A DNA stretch of 64,000 nt from Phycisphaeraceae bacterium D3-23 (lineage in GTDB: Bacteria > Planctomycetota > Phycisphaerae > Phycisphaerales > Phycisphaeraceae). The DNA is taken from contig CP114179.1 in the NCBI GenBank assembly GCA_039555135.1, forward strand, positions 868,001 to 932,000. The letters are read 5' to 3'. Of this stretch, positions 18,471 through 56,720 are shown piece after piece. The position numbers and the translations under genes are program-made. Every line of letters begins with the position of its first letter. Position 1 is the first letter of the stretch. A model generated the notes under the pieces. It searched no databases. It was not told the DNA's origin and worked only from the letters and a program-made list of their open reading frames with translations.

Positions 18471-21400
18471 TCACTCCACCGTCATCACGCCCGCACCAAA
18501 CGTGAAGCCGCCGCCGAAGGCGCAGACGCCGAGGGTGTCGCCGACCTCGAACTGGTCGTAGGACTTGCAGATCGAGAGCGGAATGGAGGAGGACGACGTG
18601 TTGCCGTGGTTGGCGAGCAGGTCGATGACCTTCTCGGGCGGGACCTTGAGCCGGGCGCGCACGGCCTCGGCGATCCGGCTGTTGGCCTGGTGTGGGACGA
18701 GCCAGTCGACCTGGTCGATCGGCAGCCCGGACTCCTCAAAGGCCTGCTTGACCATCTTCGTCATCGCGCGGACGGCCTCGACGAAAACCTTTTGCCCGTC
18801 CATGTGGACGTAGCTGTGGCCCTGGAACCCGACGGTGAGGACGTTGCCCTTGTCGGCCTTGCCCGAGAGGACGGGGCGCTGCATGACGAGGCACTTGCCG
18901 CCCTTGGCGCAGACCTTATCGTCGGTCGAGCCGCGGACGATCGTCGCGCTCGCGGCGTCGCCGAAGAGGATCGCGGTGCCGAAGTCTTTGGGGTCGACGA
19001 CGCGGGAGAGCGCTTCGGTCGTGACGACGAGCACGGCTTTGTGCGGCTGGGTGAGGATGGTGTGGTAGGCGGTGTCGAGCGCGTACAGCCAGCCCGAGCA
19101 CGCGGCGTTGACGTCGTAGACCATGAGCTCGTGCTTGGCGTCGGGGTCGAGCTCGCGCAGGATCATGCAGGCCATGGACGGCGTATTGAGCGGCGGCGTG
19201 GTCGTGTGGCAGACGATGCCGGTAAGGTCATCGAGGGTGAGCCCCTCGGCAGCGAGCGCTTTACGCGCAGCCTCGGCCCCAATACCCACAGCGGTCTGGT
19301 CGGACGCGAGGATCGGCCGCGACGCGATCCCGGTGCGTTTGATGATGTCGTCGCTGGTCCACTCGGGGAATCGCTGCTCGAAGCGTTCGTTGGTGAGCTT
19401 GTCGCGGCCCTCGGCGATCTGGATCGGCGAGAGGTAGATCTTGACCTTATCGCCCACGGCGTCGGTGAGTTGGCGGTCTTCCGAGGTCACGGGCGCGGCG
19501 GGCCGACCGATGACGGGGTGGCCCAGGTCCTCGCGGGTCTGGCGTTTCATCACGCGCTCGCCCGGGGCGGCCTGCTCGGTGCGGATCTTCAAAAGCGGTG
19601 TGCCGACGTCGACGGTCTGTTCCTCGGCGACCATCAGCTCGGCGATCGTGCCGTCGTAACGCGAGTTGATCTCGAACACGGCCTTGTCCGCCTCGGCCTC
19701 GGCGAGGAGCTGGCCCGACACGACCGCATCGCCGACCTTCACCTTCCACGCGCTGATCGTCACCGCCTGGTCCGCAGGGCTCGAGCCCTCGGCCTCGACG
19801 ATCTCGGTCAGGCCGTCATCGTCGGTGTGTTCGTGTTCAGGCCAGGTGATCCCGAGCCCGAGTAGTTCGCACGCAGTCGTCAACGTCCGACGGTAGCTAG
19901 GCAAGACTTCGAGCTGGTTGGTGTAGTTGCACGGCGCGTAGGTGTCGCTGCGGGTGACGCGTTTGGCTTTGACACTGCCGCCGAGTTTTTCGAGGACGGT
20001 CGCGAGGATCTCCGAGCCGAAGCCGAGTGTGAGGTTGTCTTCGTGGACGACCAGGAGTTTGCCGGTCTTGCGTGCGCTGCGGAGGATGGTGTCCTGGTCC
20101 CACGGCGCGATGCAGCGGAGGTCGATGAGTTCGACGCCGATGCCGACGGTGTCGAGTTTCTCGGCGACGCCCATGCCGATCGTGACGGTGCTGCCCCAGG
20201 CGACGAGGGTGAGGTCGTTGCCTTTCTTGAGGACGCGTGCGCTGCCGACGGGGGTGAGGTGTTTGTCGACGTCTTTGCTGGTGAGCTTCCAGGGCGCTCG
20301 GTCGTTGAGGCAGACCTTGGGGTAGAGGAACACCGTGGGCCGGCCCGACTCGAACGCGGCGTTGAGCATTGCGGCGGCGTCGGAGGCGGAGCTTGGCATC
20401 ATCACGTCGACGCCGGGCATGTGCGCGATGATGGATTCGAGGGTTTGGCTATGGAAGGGCCCGAGCCCGGGGCGGTACGCGCCACAGGTGATCATGAGGA
20501 TGATGGGGCACTCGAACTGGCCGTTGGTGCGCCAGTACATCGAGCCGACTTCGCTGAGCAGTTGGCCGATGCCGGTGGGCAGGAAGTCGGCGAATTGGAT
20601 GAACCCGACGGGCCGGCCACCGGCGAGCGCGCGGCCGATGCTGCTGCCGATGATGGTCGCCTCGGCGAGCGGGGAGTTGACGACGCGGCCGGGGAACTTG
20701 GTCGACAGCCCTTTGGTGACGCCGAAGACATCGCCCTTGGGGTCTTCGATATCTTCGCCAAAGAGCGTGATGCGTTCGTCGCCGGCGAGCCGGTGGCCCA
20801 GCACGGCGCGCATGGCCTCGATCATGGTGACGGTGTCGGGGGCCTCGTGGTCGGTGGGGTCCGCGCTGCCGAGGTACTCGTGCTCGTTACGCGAGGTCGG
20901 CAGCAGGTGCTCGGGCAGCGGCCGGCTGGCGGTGTGGCAGGCGACCGGGTCGCCGATGCGCCGCGCGCGTTCGACGGCGGCGCGGCAGTCGCGCTCGACC
21001 TCCTGGTCGATCGTCTCCATCGTCACGGCCGGCTCGCCCTGCGCGATCAGCCCTTTGCGCATGTTTTCGATCGGGTCGTTCTGGGCGTGGATCTGGTCGA
21101 TCGTTTCCTGGAGGCGGTAGATGCGCTGGTCGTCGGCGTTGGAGTGGCTGCAGAGGCGTTCGACATGCATGACGCCGATGCGCGGGGTGCGCAGAGCGCG
21201 GACTTCGCTGACGAGTTCACCGATGCGCGGGACGTCGGGGAGGATGTCGGTCCCGTCGAAGTGGTGGACGGTGAGGCCGAAGAAGCGGTCTTGTTCGTAG
21301 CCCGGCAGGTTGTAGAACGTGTTGCCCGTGGTCTCGGTGGAGATGGCGTAGCCGTTGTCTTGGATCCAGAAGAGGACGGGGAGCTGGTCGCGGACGGTGT

Positions 21401-21932
21401 GCGCGATGGCTTCCATCACTTCGCCCTGCTGGCTCGTGCCATCGCCCAACCCGCAGAGGACGATCGGATTGCCCGGGTCGTCCTTGATCTGCATGGCGAT
21501 GCCGACGGCCTGGAGTGCGTTATTGCCGACGGGCACGACGGTGCTGGGCAGGTTGAGCTCACGATCGGCGAGGAAGCACGACATCTGCCGGCCGGCAGAG
21601 TAGTTGGCGGCGTTGCACAGGACGCTGTCGAACCAGGCCTGGGGCTCGACGCCGCGGCCGAGCATGAGCGCCTTGTCGCGGTAGTGGCCGTGGAGCCAGT
21701 CCTGGGGCTCGAAGAACAGATTGAGCGTGGCGGCGGCTTCGTGGCCCGCGCCACCGACATGGAAGAACGCCTCGCCCGCGGCGCAGAGTTCCTGCTCCAT
21801 GCGGTCGACGACGCGCGCGCACCGCATCGCGCGGTATACGGCGAGCAGTTCGGCCATCTTCACCGTGTCGGTCGCCTTGGCATCGGCCTGGCCGTTGCGC
21901 TGCGACTTGAGTAATTCTTGTGGGACGGCCAT
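18471..21932 (-). CDS. Four-part fusion: keto-acid dehydrogenase E1 alpha - E1 beta - lipoyl domain - KAS III
   Basis: An 1153-residue protein. Residues ~20-350 are E1 alpha (HGHYRDKALMLGRG; thiamine-diphosphate motif GDGTSQQGEVMEA...QDN, GDG at 163-165). Residues ~365-695 are E1 beta (TMIEAMRAVLGHRLAGDERI, FGEDIEDPKGDVFGVTKGL, LIDLRCIAPWDQDTI). Residues ~720-785 are a lipoyl domain with the lysine in EADKAVFE at 750. Residues ~828-1153 are FabH-like KAS III with the catalytic set intact: Cys945 (NAACSGWLYAL), His1081 (VPHQANSRI) and Asn1111 (NHGNTSSSSIP). In principle one chain could decarboxylate a 2-oxo acid, load the acyl group on lipoate and use it for a decarboxylative condensation; this is inference. 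Start chosen at MAVPQELLKSQ with GGAGGG 6 nt upstream. No E2 or E3 gene is in the window. Confidence 0.93.
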   Translation of the reverse strand: MAVPQELLKSQRNGQADAKATDTVKMAELLAVYRAMRCARVVDRMEQELCAAGEAFFHVGGAGHEAAATLNLFFEPQDWLHGHYRDKALMLGRGVEPQAWFDSVLCNAANYSAGRQMSCFLADRELNLPSTVVPVGNNALQAVGIAMQIKDDPGNPIVLCGLGDGTSQQGEVMEAIAHTVRDQLPVLFWIQDNGYAISTETTGNTFYNLPGYEQDRFFGLTVHHFDGTDILPDVPRIGELVSEVRALRTPRIGVMHVERLCSHSNADDQRIYRLQETIDQIHAQNDPIENMRKGLIAQGEPAVTMETIDQEVERDCRAAVERARRIGDPVACHTASRPLPEHLLPTSRNEHEYLGSADPTDHEAPDTVTMIEAMRAVLGHRLAGDERITLFGEDIEDPKGDVFGVTKGLSTKFPGRVVNSPLAEATIIGSSIGRALAGGRPVGFIQFADFLPTGIGQLLSEVGSMYWRTNGQFECPIILMITCGAYRPGLGPFHSQTLESIIAHMPGVDVMMPSSASDAAAMLNAAFESGRPTVFLYPKVCLNDRAPWKLTSKDVDKHLTPVGSARVLKKGNDLTLVAWGSTVTIGMGVAEKLDTVGIGVELIDLRCIAPWDQDTILRSARKTGKLLVVHEDNLTLGFGSEILATVLEKLGGSVKAKRVTRSDTYAPCNYTNQLEVLPSYRRTLTTACELLGLGITWPEHEHTDDDGLTEIVEAEGSSPADQAVTISAWKVKVGDAVVSGQLLAEAEADKAVFEINSRYDGTIAELMVAEEQTVDVGTPLLKIRTEQAAPGERVMKRQTREDLGHPVIGRPAAPVTSEDRQLTDAVGDKVKIYLSPIQIAEGRDKLTNERFEQRFPEWTSDDIIKRTGIASRPILASDQTAVGIGAEAARKALAAEGLTLDDLTGIVCHTTTPPLNTPSMACMILRELDPDAKHELMVYDVNAACSGWLYALDTAYHTILTQPHKAVLVVTTEALSRVVDPKDFGTAILFGDAASATIVRGSTDDKVCAKGGKCLVMQRPVLSGKADKGNVLTVGFQGHSYVHMDGQKVFVEAVRAMTKMVKQAFEESGLPIDQVDWLVPHQANSRIAEAVRARLKVPPEKVIDLLANHGNTSSSSIPLSICKSYDQFEVGDTLGVCAFGGGFTFGAGVMTVE

Positions 21933-22058
21933 CCGAGCCCTCCGTCGTATCGCCCGCGTCGGCCGGGCGTGGTGGGAAACAAAACGGGCACGTGTGGCCC
22001 CAAAACGCACCCGACAGTTTAGCCGATCCGTGCCGTGCCAGCCGTTGAGCCGGCGCCT

Positions 22059-25000
22059 TTAGGCACGGTCCAGCTCTTTGGCATCGACCACGACCAGGCG
22101 GTCCAGCCGAGCACGCGCGTCGCGGACGGCCTGCCGGCGGGTTTCGCCCCGGCCCGAGATCGCGGCCGCGGTGGACGCGATCTCGCACCACTTGCGGTAG
22201 TCGCTCATCGCGGAGGTGTCGGTCACACCCGCCAGGGTCTGGAGGTAGAGATCGCGCAGGTCGCGCTGCTCACGGTACCAGCCCGTGCGGACACGGCGGA
22301 TGAAGCGCAGCCGAGCGAGCAGGCGGAGCGCCCGTTCGCCGAGCGTAAGGTTGAACGCGATATGTCGTTTGAAGAGGTCGAACTCGGGGCGGACGACGTG
22401 CCGGTAGCTGACCTTGTCGCCGCGCTCGAGCGCAAGATTCAGCCGGCGCCGGTCTCGACGGTAGCGCGTCGGCGAAGTCAGCAGCGCGGCGAGGTAGACC
22501 TCGTCGGGTACGATCATCGCGCGGGCTGCGCCCTCAATGCCGCGGCGTGTCAGCTCGTATCCGCGCTCGGCGCTGTCGTGGTCGAGCAGGCGATCGACCG
22601 TCTCGCACAAGCGCCTGGCGTAGGCGATCCCGCCCCGCTTGCCGCCCCACACCACGCAGCGGTACGACACCTGAACCAGCCGGGCGCGCACCGCGCGGTC
22701 CAGTTGGGCGCAGCGTTCGAGTAGTGGCGACATGAGCCCGACATACTCCCGCGAAACGACAGGCCCGCTGCGCCCGCCAAACTGCTCGGCGATATCTTCC
22801 GCCACCGCATCAAGCAGGTCGCCCGGCTCGTCGGGCTCGTGCGACAAGAATCGGTCTGCAAAGCCGGGGTCGACCGCGAGCTTGCGGCCAACATCCAGCG
22901 CCTCGCCGCAACGCGCATCGGCCGTGCCCAGCACGCGGCGGGTCGCCTGCTCGATCGCGGGCCGGGTCAACGGCGCGAGCCCGCGTTGCAGCACGATGCC
23001 GAGCATGACCCATGCCGAAAACCGGCGGTGGCCCCAGAAGTATTCACTGAGCACCGCCGCCGACACTAACGCACGGCGGTCGGGGTGTGTGCTGGCTTCG
23101 AGTGAATCCGCCAGCGCCTCGGCGGGGTGCCGGCTTGGTGTGTTGTTCAGGAGCTGGTCGAGCGTGGGCAGCGCAAGCGTATCGATCACCGCGCCGGTGC
23201 GCTGCGCGTGGCCGACGGCGTCTAAGGTCTGCTGGCCCAGCACACTGTCGGTCGCGAGCACGAGGTCCGTCGAGCCGGGCGTCGGCGTCGCGGCGTACAT
23301 CGGGCGCGTCGATCGCCCCGGCGCACCAGCAACCGTCAGTTCCTGTTCACGCGGCGGGCTGGCGAACATGACATCGACCCGCCCGGGTCGGCCCGTCGCG
23401 AGCGAGTCGACGTCCAGCGTGCCCCGCACCTGATATCCCATCGCCGCACCGGCCTCGACGAGTAGACGGGCCAGCAGGTCGAGCCCCGCCCCGCTCACTC
23501 CGGCGACGCTCGCACGCCAGACCTCCTGCGTCGCATGGATCGGGTGTGTCGGCGTCTCGATATCCACAAGCAAGCTCGCATCAAGCCGGCTGCGCTCGGG
23601 CCCGCTGCGCTGGATCGTCGCCAGCCCCAGCGCGGGGTTGGCCAGCGCGTTGAGCATCGACCGCCCCGCCCAGGCCCAGGACGTCGCCGTCATCCACCCG
23701 CCCGACTCACGCGGCGCGGGCTCCAGTCCGAGTGGCCCGAGCTGCAGGCGCTGGGCCGTATTCAAAAACCATACCTCCGGGCAGAGCACCAGCCGCTGCT
23801 GCGTCGCGATGTAGCCTTCACCGGTGGACGCTTGAAGCCAATGCTCCGCCGCCGCCCTAAGCGCTCGCGGCCCCTCACGCCGACGCGCGAGCACGATATG
23901 CACGCCCTTGCCGGTCACCGACCGCTCCAGCAAGCGCCGTAGCCGAGGCCGATCCGTCGGGTCGATCACCCCGATCCGCACGCCCGGCTCCTGCGACCCC
24001 GACCCCAGCGCCGCCAACATCGCGGGCAGGTCCAGCACGCCCGGCGCACGCTTGCGACGTGACCACCGCCGACGCTTACGCCGCACCGCCGAGGGCTCCT
24101 CGGTATGGATGATGAATGTGATGTCCCGCCCGTGCCGCGCGGCCGTCGCGATCGCGGCGTAGCCGTGTGCAAACAGCTCCCGCCCGTTCATCAACACCAC
24201 GGGCCGCGCGCTCGACGACGCACCCGCGCCCAGCGCGGCAGTGCCCGCCGACTCGCCTGCGATGCGCGACCCGCCGGTGGTCGGCAGCTCATGCTCCAAC
24301 AGCAGACGCGACTGGTCATCCAGCTCGCCGAACACCGCGATGTCGAACGCCGACGACCCGTGCTGCTCGGTCATGTACTGCGCATCGGTGAGGTCGCGCC
24401 GCAACCGACCCAGCACGGCCACCACATCGACCAGCGCGCTGCCCGGCGGCGGTAGCCGATCCAAGACTTCTGACTTCGATGCGCGCCCTATCACCGACGC
24501 GACCTGCGATTCGAGGCCCGCAAGCGCACCGGCAAGCACCTCACGCGGCACACCCGGATGCCCCCGCAACTGCGACGCAAGGCCTGCCAAAATCGCCCCC
24601 GGCGAACTGCCCGGCCCGTCCAGCATCGCGACGACTTCACTCGATGCGTCGCCGCGCACTCGCAAATCCGACAACACCCGCGCCACCGCACGGTACAGCG
24701 TGCCCTCCGCGTGATCGACCACCACCAGCCGGCGGCAGTCGCGCGCATGCCGCTCGACCATCTCCGTATCTACCGGCCCGGCCATCCCCAGCCGCAGGAT
24801 CGGCAGACGACCCACAAGCCCGAGCTCCGAGATCACCTGACGCAGTCGCGCGTAGCCCACACCGCCCACCACCAGCCCCATCGGCAGCGCCTCGTCCCGG
24901 CCCGGCGGGTTGATGATCACGTTCGCCCTGTCACCGCGTGCGATACCCAGAAGCACATCGACCCGATCTCCCCCCGCAGGCCGGCCGGTCAACGCCATCC

Positions 25001-25592
25001 CCGATGGGTGCTGCACACGGCCGGGCTTGCCGCAGTGGACCGTGCCAAACCCGTCCCATACCGCGCCCGCCAAGCCCAGCACCGAAACGCCGCCCGCCGA
25101 CGCGCTCGCCCGCATCGCCATCGCAAACCACGGCATCACCTCCGCATGATGCGCCGGCTCAACGATTGTCAATCCGCCCAACGACCAGTCGTCCGCAACC
25201 ACGCGGCCCAACGCCGAATCCCAAGGCCCCACCGCGACCACCACCCCCGCGCCATTCGCTTCGAACGTCTCACCCGATGTAGGGAGCAACGCCCGGCCTG
25301 CATCTGCGGCACCTTGCGCATCAAGCATAAGCAGACCCGGCCGACAAGCATCCAACGCCCCCCGCGCCGCCGCCGCCGCCAGCGCCGCGTCGGGCAGCAC
25401 CAGCGCCTCAATACCTTGCTCCGCCAGCCAGGCCGTGTGTGACTCCACCAGATCGACCACCGCGTCCGGGCTGCCCAGCCGAGAGACGATCACGACCCGC
25501 ACCCCCGCCGCGATCGCCGAACGCAGCAGCAGCAAAGGTGTGCCCATCACCGCGTCGCCATCGGACTGGATCAACCGCGGGTCGGGGGGCAT
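22059..25592 (-). CDS. Degenerate indolepyruvate ferredoxin oxidoreductase-like protein
   Basis: An 1177-residue protein whose length and order resemble fused IorA/IorB proteins: a POR-type N-terminal domain (~1-220, LRSAIAAGVRVVIVSRLGSP), a thiamine-domain-like region (~400-560), a gamma-like domain (~690-760, ASVAGVSGAGLDLLARLLVE) and a long C-terminal region (~900-1177) resembling DUF6537. The expected thiamine motif is absent: where GDG...DN should be there is MNGRELFAHG...FIIHTEEPS. No CxxC iron-sulfur clusters exist. It may be inactive or act differently. It lies 126 nt upstream of the fusion gene on the same strand, so co-transcription is likely, and divergent from the KAS gene. The start at MPPDPRLIQS is chosen because earlier codons would overlap that gene. 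Family assignment is moderate. Confidence 0.6.
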   Translation of the reverse strand: MPPDPRLIQSDGDAVMGTPLLLLRSAIAAGVRVVIVSRLGSPDAVVDLVESHTAWLAEQGIEALVLPDAALAAAAARGALDACRPGLLMLDAQGAADAGRALLPTSGETFEANGAGVVVAVGPWDSALGRVVADDWSLGGLTIVEPAHHAEVMPWFAMAMRASASAGGVSVLGLAGAVWDGFGTVHCGKPGRVQHPSGMALTGRPAGGDRVDVLLGIARGDRANVIINPPGRDEALPMGLVVGGVGYARLRQVISELGLVGRLPILRLGMAGPVDTEMVERHARDCRRLVVVDHAEGTLYRAVARVLSDLRVRGDASSEVVAMLDGPGSSPGAILAGLASQLRGHPGVPREVLAGALAGLESQVASVIGRASKSEVLDRLPPPGSALVDVVAVLGRLRRDLTDAQYMTEQHGSSAFDIAVFGELDDQSRLLLEHELPTTGGSRIAGESAGTAALGAGASSSARPVVLMNGRELFAHGYAAIATAARHGRDITFIIHTEEPSAVRRKRRRWSRRKRAPGVLDLPAMLAALGSGSQEPGVRIGVIDPTDRPRLRRLLERSVTGKGVHIVLARRREGPRALRAAAEHWLQASTGEGYIATQQRLVLCPEVWFLNTAQRLQLGPLGLEPAPRESGGWMTATSWAWAGRSMLNALANPALGLATIQRSGPERSRLDASLLVDIETPTHPIHATQEVWRASVAGVSGAGLDLLARLLVEAGAAMGYQVRGTLDVDSLATGRPGRVDVMFASPPREQELTVAGAPGRSTRPMYAATPTPGSTDLVLATDSVLGQQTLDAVGHAQRTGAVIDTLALPTLDQLLNNTPSRHPAEALADSLEASTHPDRRALVSAAVLSEYFWGHRRFSAWVMLGIVLQRGLAPLTRPAIEQATRRVLGTADARCGEALDVGRKLAVDPGFADRFLSHEPDEPGDLLDAVAEDIAEQFGGRSGPVVSREYVGLMSPLLERCAQLDRAVRARLVQVSYRCVVWGGKRGGIAYARRLCETVDRLLDHDSAERGYELTRRGIEGAARAMIVPDEVYLAALLTSPTRYRRDRRRLNLALERGDKVSYRHVVRPEFDLFKRHIAFNLTLGERALRLLARLRFIRRVRTGWYREQRDLRDLYLQTLAGVTDTSAMSDYRKWCEIASTAAAISGRGETRRQAVRDARARLDRLVVVDAKELDRA

Positions 25593-25652
25593 GCTGGGGG
25601 TCCGTGGGTTTCGGTCTGCGCTAGCCTCGCTATCATCGGCCGCACTTCTCAA

Positions 25653-26891
25653 ATGAGCAAACCCCACACCCCCCATTGCGCACACTCACCCGACACCCCC
25701 GCCGCCGAGCACCGCGCCCCCGCGCGCGTCGTCATCGCCGGCTTCGGACTCATCACACCGCTCGGGCTCGGGGCCTGGGCGACCTACCGCGCGCTCCTGC
25801 AAGGCCAAACCATCGCCGACCGTGCGCAAGCGCTTCCCGAAGGCCTCCCGCCCACCGACCTCGTCCTCGCGCTCGGCGGCGTCAGCGTCGCCCGACACAC
25901 CGCCTCCGACCCGGCCGTCGAGCTCGCCGAACGCGCCGCACGCGAAGCCGCCGCGATGGCCGGCCAACCCACCGACAAACTCCCGCTCTGGTTGGGCACC
26001 AGCAAAGGCGCCGTCGCCCGGCTCTCCACACGCCAAGGCCTGGGCAACCCGCCCGACGAACACGACCGCCGCAACATCGCCCTGGGTCCACACGCTTTCC
26101 TCGCCCACCAGCTCGACCAACGCATGGGCACGCGCAGCCGGGCCCAGAGCGTCGCCGCCTGCGCTTCGGGCCTCGTCGCGCTCGACCGCGCACGCCGGGC
26201 GCTCGCCTACGCCGACGACGGCACAGACGAACCCTACGCACTCGTCGCCACCGCCGACGCGGCGCTCACGCCTTGCTTCGTCCACAGCTACCTCCGCCTC
26301 GGTGTCCTCGCCGACCCCACCCGCGACGGCTACCGTCAGCGCCCGCTCGACCACCGCCGACGCGGCTTCATGCTCAGCGAAATCGGCGCAGCCGTACTGC
26401 TACGCCGACTCCCGCGCGGCCAATCGCCCGCGCCAAACGACATCGAACTCGTCCACACCGCCACCGCCTGCGAAGCGTTCGACATGATCCGCACCCCGCC
26501 GACCATGCCCGCCCTCTCGCATGTCGCCACGCGACTCCGCGACCACCTACCCCAAAGCGAAGCGCTCGCCGCCCTCCACCCCCACGCCCCGGGCACCCCC
26601 GACCACGACCCGGGGGAACTCAAAGTCCTGCACAACGTCTTCGGCAACACACCCAACCTCTACGCCTGCAAAGGCGCGATCGGCCACGGCCTCGGGTCCG
26701 CCGGCCTCGCCGCACTCGTCATCGCCTGCCTCGCCCTGCGCACCCAAAAACTGCCACCCATGCCCTGGCTCGACCAACCGATCTTCCCGCTCCAAGACCC
26801 GACACCCCAGACCCAAGAACCGTCCCAAACCCACGCCGTCTTCGCCGCCGGCTTTGGCGGGCACACCGCCGGCGCCCTCCTCCGCTCCTAG
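25653..26891 (+). CDS. Beta-ketoacyl synthase (FabF-like, divergent)
   Basis: A 412-residue condensing enzyme. The Cys-His-His set is readable: Cys170 in SVAACASGLVAL, His311 in HAPGTPDHD (equivalent to HGTGTPxND of FabF), and Lys340/His345 in KGAIGHGLGSAG. RPLDHRRRGFMLSEIGAAVL matches the FabF RPFDxxRDGFVxGEGAG segment but is degraded. Such enzymes extend acyl thioesters with malonyl-ACP. It is more divergent than a housekeeping FabF and has an N-terminal extension rich in P, H and A. It is divergent from the oxidoreductase-like gene (61 nt between starts) and, with the E1-lipoyl-KAS III gene, suggests a dedicated acyl-chain pathway. TATCAT at 25631-25636 is a possible -10. Confidence 0.8.
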   Translation: MSKPHTPHCAHSPDTPAAEHRAPARVVIAGFGLITPLGLGAWATYRALLQGQTIADRAQALPEGLPPTDLVLALGGVSVARHTASDPAVELAERAAREAAAMAGQPTDKLPLWLGTSKGAVARLSTRQGLGNPPDEHDRRNIALGPHAFLAHQLDQRMGTRSRAQSVAACASGLVALDRARRALAYADDGTDEPYALVATADAALTPCFVHSYLRLGVLADPTRDGYRQRPLDHRRRGFMLSEIGAAVLLRRLPRGQSPAPNDIELVHTATACEAFDMIRTPPTMPALSHVATRLRDHLPQSEALAALHPHAPGTPDHDPGELKVLHNVFGNTPNLYACKGAIGHGLGSAGLAALVIACLALRTQKLPPMPWLDQPIFPLQDPTPQTQEPSQTHAVFAAGFGGHTAGALLRS

Positions 26892-53940: not shown

Positions 53941-54109
53941 GTTTTGACCACTCACGCCCGTTTTGTCATGCTTGCTATCGATAACGCGACGCGGCCCGGC
54001 CGCGACAAATGGGGTGGGCAGGCCTGCCCGCAGAAAAGTCGCGGATAGACAGAATCCCCCAACCACTTGTTAGAGCGCACCAGAACCAACCTAGGAATCG
54101 AATGTAATC

Positions 54110-55780
54110 ATGGAAGCAAGAAACCGACTTTTGCCAGACTGGTTAACAAAGGTCAGAACAAGACAGATTGTCTTGCCTCGATTTCAGCGATTTGAGGCGT
54201 GGTCTCACGGGCAAGTTACTGGATTGCTAAACAACGTACTGCAAGAACTTCCCGCCGGTGCAGTTCTCATTCTGGAAATTGGGGACAAGGAGCCATTCCA
54301 TTCTCGCCCAGTTATGGGTGCACCCAATAGGGGTGATCGAATTACAGAGCACCTACTGGATGGCCAACAAAGAATCACGGCGTTGTGGCGTAGCTTGCAC
54401 GACCAATACGACAACCGTTCATATTTCGTAGCTTTCGACGAAGAGCAATCTGAAGAGGTTCCGTACTACATTGTTTCGTATGGACGGTGGGATAAAAACG
54501 GCGAACGCTATCCACTTTGGCTAAACTCACCTCCCAAGGTATGGGCGAAGAACATGATTCCCGTTCCGCTTCTGCGGCCGGATAATGAAGCGGAGTCGGA
54601 ACTCGACCTGTGGGCTGAATCCGCATCTGATGGAGATAGAGAAACAGAGCGGCGAATCATCAAACAGGGGAACCGCCTCCGTCAGCTCTTTGCCAAATTT
54701 AACATACCTTTTTTGTCCCTACCGAGTACAACGCCGAACGAAACGGCGTTGAATGTCTTCATTCAAATGAACACTTCGGCTTCGCCCTTGTCTGCTTACG
54801 ACATCGTTGTTGCACAGGTAGAAGCTGCTGCTGGAATGTCACTCCACGAGTTAACTGATGATCTGCGTAAGTCTGCCCCGGCTATCGAAGAATACATTGA
54901 ACCAGCCGATTTGATGCTAGCCGTTAGTGCCCTGCTGCAAGATAGAGTCCCAAACAAAAGTACCTACCTCAGCGATGGGTTTAGCAGCCATCTTGTGGAG
55001 GTATGGGATAAAACTATTCTGGGAGTAAAACGGGCAATCGCATTTCTTGAAGAAGAGCGTATTTTCGATGGAAAACGCCTTCCTACAGATGTGGTGCTCT
55101 ACCCGCTTTCTGCCCTCTGGTCGCAAGTCCCTGATGGCCTTGATGCAGAAGGAGAAGCACGAACTCTTATACGTCGGTACTTGTGGCGAACTTTCTGCAC
55201 TGATAGGTATGAACGAACCTCTGCCACACGCGCATTGACAGACTTTCGTCAGTTATCGAAGTTACTTTCGTCACCAGATTCTATATCCCCGGATGTCTTT
55301 GATGAGCAGCGCCATCCGCTACCCACAGTCGAAGAGCTAGTGTTTTCTGGATGGCCTGTTAGAAAAGATAGACTCGCTCGGGCCATATTGGCTGTCTCTC
55401 TTAGAGCGGGTGGCTTAGATTTCGCTGACGGTAGTCCCGCATCAAGAAGTGGACTAAAGAAACGAGAGTACCATCACCTGTTTCCCAATGCATGGCTTGC
55501 CAGAGCCGGCTTTCAAGACGATGCGATTTTTCGTTCGTTAAACTGCGGTCTAGTTAGCTGGAGAACCAACCGCAATATCTCAGACAAGGCACCAGCAAGA
55601 TACTTGAACGAGAGAATGGAAGCGTCCAGTTTGGGTGCTGAAGAAATCGAGCGCCGCCTCGAATCTCATTTGATCCCACACAAGCAAATCATTAAAGAAC
55701 AGTATGAAGATTTTCTTGTAGAAAGGGGAAAGTTGGTTCTTGGTCACATGAAGTCACTGTGTTCGGCAGGCAACACGTAG
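54110..55780 (+). CDS. DUF262 / HNH (GmrSD-like) nuclease-like protein
   Basis: A 556-residue cytoplasmic protein. The N-terminal DUF262 (ParB-like NTPase) domain shows PRFQRFEAWSHGQVTGLLNN and EHLLDGQQRITALWRSLHDQ (residues ~80-100, with the DGQQR motif). The C-terminal part has an HNH/DUF1524-like motif REYHHLFPNAWLARAGFQDD (~450) followed by LNCGLVSWRTNRNISDKAPA. This is the layout of GmrSD-type modification-dependent restriction and related phage-defence enzymes; defence is inference. The gene is much AT-richer than every neighbour and uses codons like TTA, AGA and CAA freely, a sign of recent transfer. Preceded by the 21-bp arrays D and E. Confidence 0.85.
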   Translation: MEARNRLLPDWLTKVRTRQIVLPRFQRFEAWSHGQVTGLLNNVLQELPAGAVLILEIGDKEPFHSRPVMGAPNRGDRITEHLLDGQQRITALWRSLHDQYDNRSYFVAFDEEQSEEVPYYIVSYGRWDKNGERYPLWLNSPPKVWAKNMIPVPLLRPDNEAESELDLWAESASDGDRETERRIIKQGNRLRQLFAKFNIPFLSLPSTTPNETALNVFIQMNTSASPLSAYDIVVAQVEAAAGMSLHELTDDLRKSAPAIEEYIEPADLMLAVSALLQDRVPNKSTYLSDGFSSHLVEVWDKTILGVKRAIAFLEEERIFDGKRLPTDVVLYPLSALWSQVPDGLDAEGEARTLIRRYLWRTFCTDRYERTSATRALTDFRQLSKLLSSPDSISPDVFDEQRHPLPTVEELVFSGWPVRKDRLARAILAVSLRAGGLDFADGSPASRSGLKKREYHHLFPNAWLARAGFQDDAIFRSLNCGLVSWRTNRNISDKAPARYLNERMEASSLGAEEIERRLESHLIPHKQIIKEQYEDFLVERGKLVLGHMKSLCSAGNT

Positions 55781-55877
55781 TGTGCTCTAAGAAGGCTGCG
55801 GAGTGGAACGCATCTTCCACTACGCCCTTTTAGTCTTCAATATAATTCCACCATTCCCGGCAAGTGTTACAACTAAC

Positions 55878-56720
55878 CTACTCCCCCGGGATATACGAGA
55901 TCACGCCGTCCCAGGGGGAGCTGGCGGTGGCGTAGAGTTTTTTGGGGATGCGGCCGGCGAGGTAGGAGAGGCGGCCGGCTTCGACGGCGTGGCGCATGGC
56001 GTGGGCCATCTGCACGGGGTCTTTGGCGTGGGCGATGCCGGTGTTCATGAGGACGCCGTCGGCGCCGAGTTGCATGGCGAGGGTGGTGTCGGCGGCCTCG
56101 CCGACGCCGGCGTCGAGGATGACGGGGTAGTCGGGGTCGCCGTCCTTGAGCAGTTCGAGGATGATGGTGATGGCGTTGGGGTTGAGGACGCCCTGGCCGC
56201 TGCCGATCGGGGAGCCGGCGGGCATGACGCTGCTCGCGCCGGCCTCCTTGAGCTTCACGGCCATGACGGGGTCATCACTCGTGTAGCACAGCACCTTGAA
56301 GCCGTCGGCGACGAGTTCGCGGGTCGCTTCGAGCGTGCCGAGGGGGTCGGGGAGGAGGGTCTTCTTGTCGGCCAACACTTCGAGCTTGACCCAGTCCTTG
56401 CCGGGGTTGTCGAGCTGGTCGAGCAGCTCGCGGCCGAGCTTGGCGACGCGGACCGCATCATCGGCGGTGAAGCAGCCGGCGGTGTTGGGGAGGATGGTGT
56501 AGCGGTCGGTGTCGATGTAGTCGAGTAAGGATTCGCCCTTGGCGTTGACGAGGCGCTCCCGGCGGACGGCGACGGTGATGACCTCGGCCCCGGAGGCGTC
56601 GAGGGCCTGCTGCATCTGTTCGTAGGTGGCGTACTTGCCGGTGCCGACGATGAGTCGGGAGGTCAGCGTGCGGCCGGCGATGTGGAGGGGAGCGGATTGT
56701 TGGGTGAGCGTGTTGGGCAT
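55878..56720 (-). CDS. thiG: Thiazole synthase
   Basis: A 280-residue enzyme that forms the thiazole phosphate of thiamine from deoxyxylulose phosphate, dehydroglycine and the ThiS thiocarboxylate. Family motifs: [71 protein letters not shown] (the Schiff-base lysine lies in this LEVL region), [20 protein letters not shown] and [20 protein letters not shown]. Slightly longer than usual (about 255-265) through both ends. Encoded downstream of thiS with an unrelated gene between them. Confidence 0.97.

Follow-up and report, generated by a model that had tools for sequence, protein, structure and literature searches.

This work concerns a gene on the minus strand of a 64,000-nucleotide stretch of the genome of Phycisphaeraceae bacterium D3-23 (contig CP114179.1, positions 868,001 to 932,000; the whole stretch is called the window below), which encodes in a single intact frame the alpha and beta halves of a 2-oxo acid dehydrogenase E1, a lipoyl domain and a FabH-like beta-ketoacyl-acyl carrier protein (ACP) synthase III (KAS III). 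In the usual view, branched fatty acids begin with an acyl-coenzyme A (acyl-CoA), which one complex produces and FabH then binds. The properties of the fusion suggest that it is probably a self-contained enzyme that makes primers for fatty-acid-type chains and bypasses CoA. If this is true, acyl channelling on lipoate by one enzyme would give fatty acid synthesis another point of entry, present in several phyla. Each part of the fusion matches a family of its own, so that the whole is easy to miss, and we did not find it described in the open-licence literature searched, where titles and the beginnings of abstracts alone were compared for most papers.

In the route that we infer, E1 alpha-beta, given its intact family residues, would use thiamine diphosphate to decarboxylate a 2-oxo acid and would load the acyl group onto the lipoyl arm by reductive acylation. 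The arm would then deliver this group to the KAS III cysteine of the same protein, in place of an acyltransferase (E2) core and CoA, and the KAS III would condense it with malonyl-ACP to give a 3-oxoacyl-ACP, while a separate dihydrolipoyl dehydrogenase (E3) would reoxidise the lipoyl arm.

Architecture and catalytic residues of the fusion

The source genome is one contig of 4.62 Mb, and the features of the gene in the window are the following.

18471–21932, minus strand: whole fusion gene, an open frame with homologs (protein P0001, 1153 amino acids)
20958–21836, minus strand: E1-alpha domain, residues 33–325, the thiamine-diphosphate half (Pfam PF00676, E 5.9e-29)
19908–20834, minus strand: E1-beta domain, residues 367–675 (Pfam PF02779 and PF02780)
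19584–19763, minus strand: lipoyl domain, residues 724–783, attachment Lys750 (Pfam PF00364, E 4.5e-16)
18480–19403, minus strand: KAS III (FabH-like) domain, residues 844–1151, with Cys945, His1081 and Asn1111 (NCBIfam NF006829)
21938–21943, minus strand: GGAGGG, a probable ribosome-binding site (from the sequence), its 3' end 5 nt from the ATG

A preliminary description of this DNA had reported a 1153-residue frame with this order of domains, a good ribosome-binding site and intact active-site motifs, and all three points are borne out, the ribosome-binding site as probable. The Pfam domains E1_dh (33–325), Transket_pyr (367–539), Transketolase_C (563–675), Biotin_lipoyl (724–783), ACP_syn_III (939–1005) and ACP_syn_III_C (1066–1150) each score above their cut-offs, as does the NCBIfam beta-ketoacyl-ACP synthase 3 model at residues 844–1151 (262.5 bits for a cut-off of 249). 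The start codon is the ATG at 21932, a longer GTG start at 22010 being a possible alternative.

We aligned 43 fusions from several phyla, 44–83% identical to the protein of the window. E1_dh, Transket_pyr and Transketolase_C follow one another in this order in 43/43 and the PF00364 lipoyl domain is found in all of them. The E2 acyltransferase core (PF00198) is absent from P0001 and from the 43 fusions, in which no E3-binding domain was matched either (Pfam, E up to 0.001 for both). Residues H83, Y84, R85, N193, H263, D267 and R273 of E1-alpha and E424 and H494 of E1-beta are invariant, and we take their roles in the fusion to be those of the E1 active site; in the cofactor motif, D164 is present in 40 fusions and G165 in 39. 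K750, the lysine of the EADKA motif, is invariant (the D of the motif is kept in 33/43), and the lipoyl domain with this lysine is a predicted lipoylation site. The lipoyl synthase (LipA) family is matched in nine of nine carrier genomes, above the cut-off in eight. Cys945, His1081 and Asn1111 align with C112, H244 and N274 of Escherichia coli FabH and are invariant in the 43 fusions; the Cys-His-Asn triad is intact in all 81 fusion KAS domains collected. The KAS part of an AlphaFold model superposes on FabH structures with a template modelling (TM) score by target of about 0.9 (Foldseek).

Loss of the CoA-adenine residues

In a FabH structure the adenine of CoA stacks between Trp32 and Arg151, according to the part of the source available to us (PMC4606726). 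Each of these residues is kept in 0/81 fusion KAS domains, whereas free-standing KAS III proteins have Trp32 in 40 of 41 distinct sequences and Arg151 in 39 (the set has 42 rows, as the FabH of the window's genome appears twice, as L001 and L194). One free-standing row, L190, has Lys for Arg151, and the distant KAS III L193 is the sole row without both residues; L193 is the free-standing KAS III of genome G349 and sits on a very long branch. Arg249 of FabH, for which we assume a role on the ACP side, is kept in all 81 fusion KAS domains, and Lys214 is only loosely kept (24/81, versus 37/42 free-standing rows).

The loss of Trp32 and Arg151 is what a lipoyl donor would allow, and most simply the lipoyl arm, rather than CoA, would be the donor and would pass the acyl group directly to the KAS cysteine. 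The bypass of acyl-CoA proposed in the preliminary description is thus strengthened by the lack of an E2 core and by the replacement of the adenine-stacking residues in 81/81 domains; the transfer from lipoyl to KAS itself is a predicted step.

Spread of the fusion among bacteria

Genome contigs were scanned with the lipoyl–KAS part of ten relatives and two short patterns, one of which contains the K750 (EADKA) motif, and the best 80 of 208 related stretches were kept as loci. This mapping, which had been suggested as a check of the fusion, places the 80 loci in the Planctomycetota (Phycisphaerae and others), Verrucomicrobiota, Kiritimatiellota, Lentisphaerota, Spirochaetota and Sumerlaeota, together with two gammaproteobacterial metagenome-assembled genomes (MAGs); 76 of the 80 are titled MAGs, so that some taxonomic labels, Gammaproteobacteria for one, may result from misbinning. 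All four parts lie in order within one frame in 74 loci and the remaining six run off the contig start. Eight loci (L079–L086) belong to the window's own family, where they are already counted, and 72 lie outside it.

Within that family the fusion is present in 12/51 genomes and 6/33 genera, the window's own genome included; the copy in G332 is truncated at residue 608 and that in G331 at residue 1124, in both cases by the end of a contig. When completeness of 90% or more and contamination of 5% or less are required, 33 family genomes remain, of which 9 have it. Of 298 genomes sampled from the class, six have the fusion at E 1e-100, all within the family. Elsewhere, 45 of 193 genomes in the class of Pontiella match at E 1e-150 or better, and in the order of locus L151 an E-value of 1e-100 or better is reached by 15/196 genomes, in 13 of which the match runs from E1 to KAS in one frame. 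L151 itself is a MAG labelled Akkermansia muciniphila; the label is doubtful, as the genome is given as 4.2 Mb, more than would be expected of that species, the lipoyl–KAS part lies at a contig start and the E1 part on another contig, and we do not retain Akkermansia as a carrier. Among 72,556 plasmid records none covers 80% of the fusion protein at E 1e-60, and 70 match it in part. Since the fusion recurs in the family genomes and in the 72 outside loci, a frameshift or an assembly join between the parts, which the preliminary description named as what could undo its claim, is excluded.

History of the fusion

In a quick tree of 43 of the 81 fusion KAS domains and 22 free-standing KAS III rows, the fusion domains form one clade apart from FabH, on a long stem with a Shimodaira–Hasegawa-like approximate likelihood ratio (SH-aLRT) support of 100. 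The E1 tree, with four non-fusion outgroup rows (a fifth outgroup row, L131_3_E1, is a fusion itself, which explains two label changes), places the fusions in groups that largely agree with those of the KAS tree and mostly follow the phyla, with a few rows that move, such as L108 of the Sumerlaeota. Patristic distances of the E1 and KAS parts correlate with r 0.79, a value reached in none of 2000 permutations. The simplest account of the two trees is one old fusion that would have been inherited as a unit. One row departs from its family: the fusion at L043 8473–11958 (family genome G033) joins the Verrucomicrobiota in the KAS tree with a support of 86, and in the E1 tree its position wavers between the Verrucomicrobiota and its own family, which may reflect a transfer.

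Comparison with known systems

The fusion resembles the branched-chain keto-acid dehydrogenase (BCKDH; E1/E2/E3) and FabH pair in that a 2-oxo acid would be decarboxylated onto lipoate before a KAS III primes the chain. In the BCKDH and FabH route, however, the E2 core makes a free acyl-CoA that FabH binds, whereas the fusion has no E2 core and carries, behind its lipoyl arm, a KAS III without the CoA-adenine residues. A BCKDH and FabH route has been proposed for the branched lipids of Akkermansia, in the portion of the paper available (PMC9328018). With FabH the fusion shares the KAS fold, the Cys-His-Asn triad and Arg249; it differs in its separate clade and in the replacement of Trp32 and Arg151.

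The genome of the window also encodes a 2-oxo acid dehydrogenase with fused E1 alpha and beta (L047), which has the same E1 order and is 37% identical to the fusion; unlike the fusion, its E1 stands alone, with E2 encoded by a gene of its own behind it. An E1–E2 pair such as this one may have given rise to the fusion. A different arrangement is seen on two Streptomyces plasmids, the two examined among five Streptomyces records with partial matches. Behind an E1 alpha-beta gene they encode a synthase (L196 11963–18262 and L197 9992–16291) whose first domains are lipoyl, E2 core and ACP, probably a keto-acid loading module. Judging from the domain order, a lipoyl arm would there too hand an acyl group on to an assembly line, and free acyl-CoA would apparently play no part. 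Unlike the fusion, this arrangement takes two proteins, the E1 and a polyketide/peptide synthase with an E2 core and an ACP next to a ketosynthase (KS) of KAS I/II type; the fusion has a KAS III in place of the E2 core and no ACP.

Candidate substrates of E1 and fatty acids of the carriers

At E 1e-15, the only solved structures that E1-alpha matches are the Thermus 2-oxo acid dehydrogenase and branched-chain chains. The best solved matches of E1-beta, of about equal strength, are Thermus (187.7 bits), 1ik6 (186.5) and branched-chain chains (170–174); bacterial pyruvate dehydrogenase (156 bits) and mitochondrial pyruvate dehydrogenase (112–114) come lower.

Iso chains with an even number of carbons are built on an isobutyryl starter, which derives from 2-oxoisovalerate. 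The fusion is carried by Pontiella sulfatireligans F21 (L122), the major fatty acids of which are given as C18:0, i-C12:0, i-C18:0, i-C14:0 and i-C16:0 in the available part of its description (PMC7356697); only one further E1_dh-family protein was found in its genome. Pontiella agarivorans has a similar profile by the available part of its own (PMC10880615); it is cited for this profile alone. Because a carrier makes even-numbered iso fatty acids, 2-oxoisovalerate, as the source of an isobutyryl primer, is a candidate substrate of the fusion in Pontiella; a branched 2-oxo acid is a less certain choice in the organism of the window. The idea of the preliminary description that branched chains are primed in this way thus gains the fatty acids of P. 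sulfatireligans, and the E1 sequences speak less clearly for it. We put forward only tentatively the fuller proposal of a CoA-free start from a branched 2-oxo acid to a 3-oxoacyl-ACP by lipoyl delivery, which would supply Kiritimatiellota with their even-numbered iso fatty acids and other carriers, among the spirochaetes and the Planctomycetes–Verrucomicrobia–Chlamydiae (PVC) group, with branched chains. Where the iso fatty acids of Pontiella and similar carriers come from becomes directly testable, and the fusion would offer a compact tool for branched-chain production.

Weighing of the explanations

Several observations weigh against a CoA-free primer enzyme for branched chains. The sequence evidence on the preference of E1 for branched 2-oxo acids or pyruvate is mixed: 1ik6, the second-best solved match of E1-beta, is an archaeal-type chain named pyruvate dehydrogenase, and the highest-scoring NCBIfam models for E1-alpha and E1-beta alike are those of pyruvate dehydrogenase subunits, with every score far below its cut-off. 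In F21, the one further E1_dh-family protein lies in an operon with E2 and E3 that matches pyruvate dehydrogenase-type models below cut-off, and an AceE-type enzyme scores above its own cut-off; in this comparison of E1_dh-family and AceE-type enzymes, the E1 of the operon could equally make isobutyryl-CoA. Salinispira pacifica, a spirochaete cited for its phylum and not as a known carrier, has iso-C15:0 and straight chains by the accessible part of its description (PMC4511686). Free-standing KAS III is present in 20/20 carrier genomes checked, and the fusion is therefore an addition to it. The LipA match of the window's genome is split and below cut-off. In the AlphaFold model, E1-beta superposes only poorly on solved E1-beta, with a TM score of 0.56–0.58 (root mean square deviation 13–14), and the packing of the domains is uncertain (predicted TM score 0.60). 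Finally, Arg36, also a CoA contact, is kept in 73/81 fusion KAS domains, and 44/81 have a Trp at the slot of FabH Thr28, four residues before the lost Trp32, so that the domain might have another grip on CoA.

These last residues bear on a rival explanation in which E1 and KAS III are merely a co-localised pair: the lipoyl arm would serve an E2 core outside the fusion, and the acyl-CoA made there would be used by the KAS III as it is by FabH. Three places in the window's genome do match the E2-core family, and a frame beside one of them reads by eye like a dihydrolipoyl dehydrogenase. Against these stand the disappearance of both adenine-stacking residues from every fusion KAS domain, the lack of E2-core and E3-binding matches in all aligned fusions, and the age of a fusion that has no E2 gene among its recurrent neighbours, although genes can be missed and many contigs are short. 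We consider this arrangement unlikely. It seems improbable as well that the KAS III acts as an acyltransferase from acyl-lipoyl to acyl-ACP, or on a nucleophile other than malonyl-ACP, to yield a specialised metabolite instead of a fatty-acid primer. The second condensing enzyme that adjoins the fusion in six of nine other family loci, the copy in the window having an intact Cys-His-His triad, would fit such a product, as would the lipoyl-started synthases of the Streptomyces plasmids; nevertheless, 81/81 domains retain the His and Asn on which decarboxylative condensation depends, and no biosynthetic cluster recurs over the 80 loci. That the fusion is degenerate, or arose by chance without a joint function, could be argued from its patchy presence in the family, but the conservation of catalytic residues in the 43 fusions of several phyla and the common history of the E1 and KAS halves make this very unlikely indeed. 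A self-contained enzyme that passes an acyl group from its lipoyl arm to its KAS III is the explanation that we favour.

Neighbouring genes and other features of the window

Two genes lie upstream of the fusion in the window.

22059–25685, minus strand: diverged indolepyruvate-ferredoxin-oxidoreductase-like protein, 1208 amino acids, 126 nt upstream of the fusion
25653–26891, plus strand: divergent KAS I/II-type condensing enzyme

The survey of neighbours favours the longest frame and may miss genes. Within this limit no conserved biosynthetic cluster was found, the commonest neighbour family being present in 17 of the 80 loci, on contigs that are often short; that no family exceeds this number is as expected of a self-sufficient enzyme. 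The KAS I/II-type gene adjoins the fusion in family loci of genera g1, g4, g10 and g15 and is absent beside it in L041, L043 and L046, the last without upstream DNA; among the scan loci it is a neighbour in 5/80, all of the Phycisphaera group. The oxidoreductase-like gene was considered as a general key to the function of the fusion and rejected, as it stands beside it in three other g1 genomes only (nine family loci and 80 scan loci). Its product contains DUF6537, lacks any CxxC and has only two matches (GDA) to the GD[GSA] pattern, and is perhaps a pseudo-enzyme. Farther away, positions 54001–56000 of the window have a G+C content of 0.50, compared with about 0.62–0.70 in the flanking blocks, and a 556-amino-acid frame in this block (54110–55780) resembles, on inspection by eye, a mobile or defence gene.

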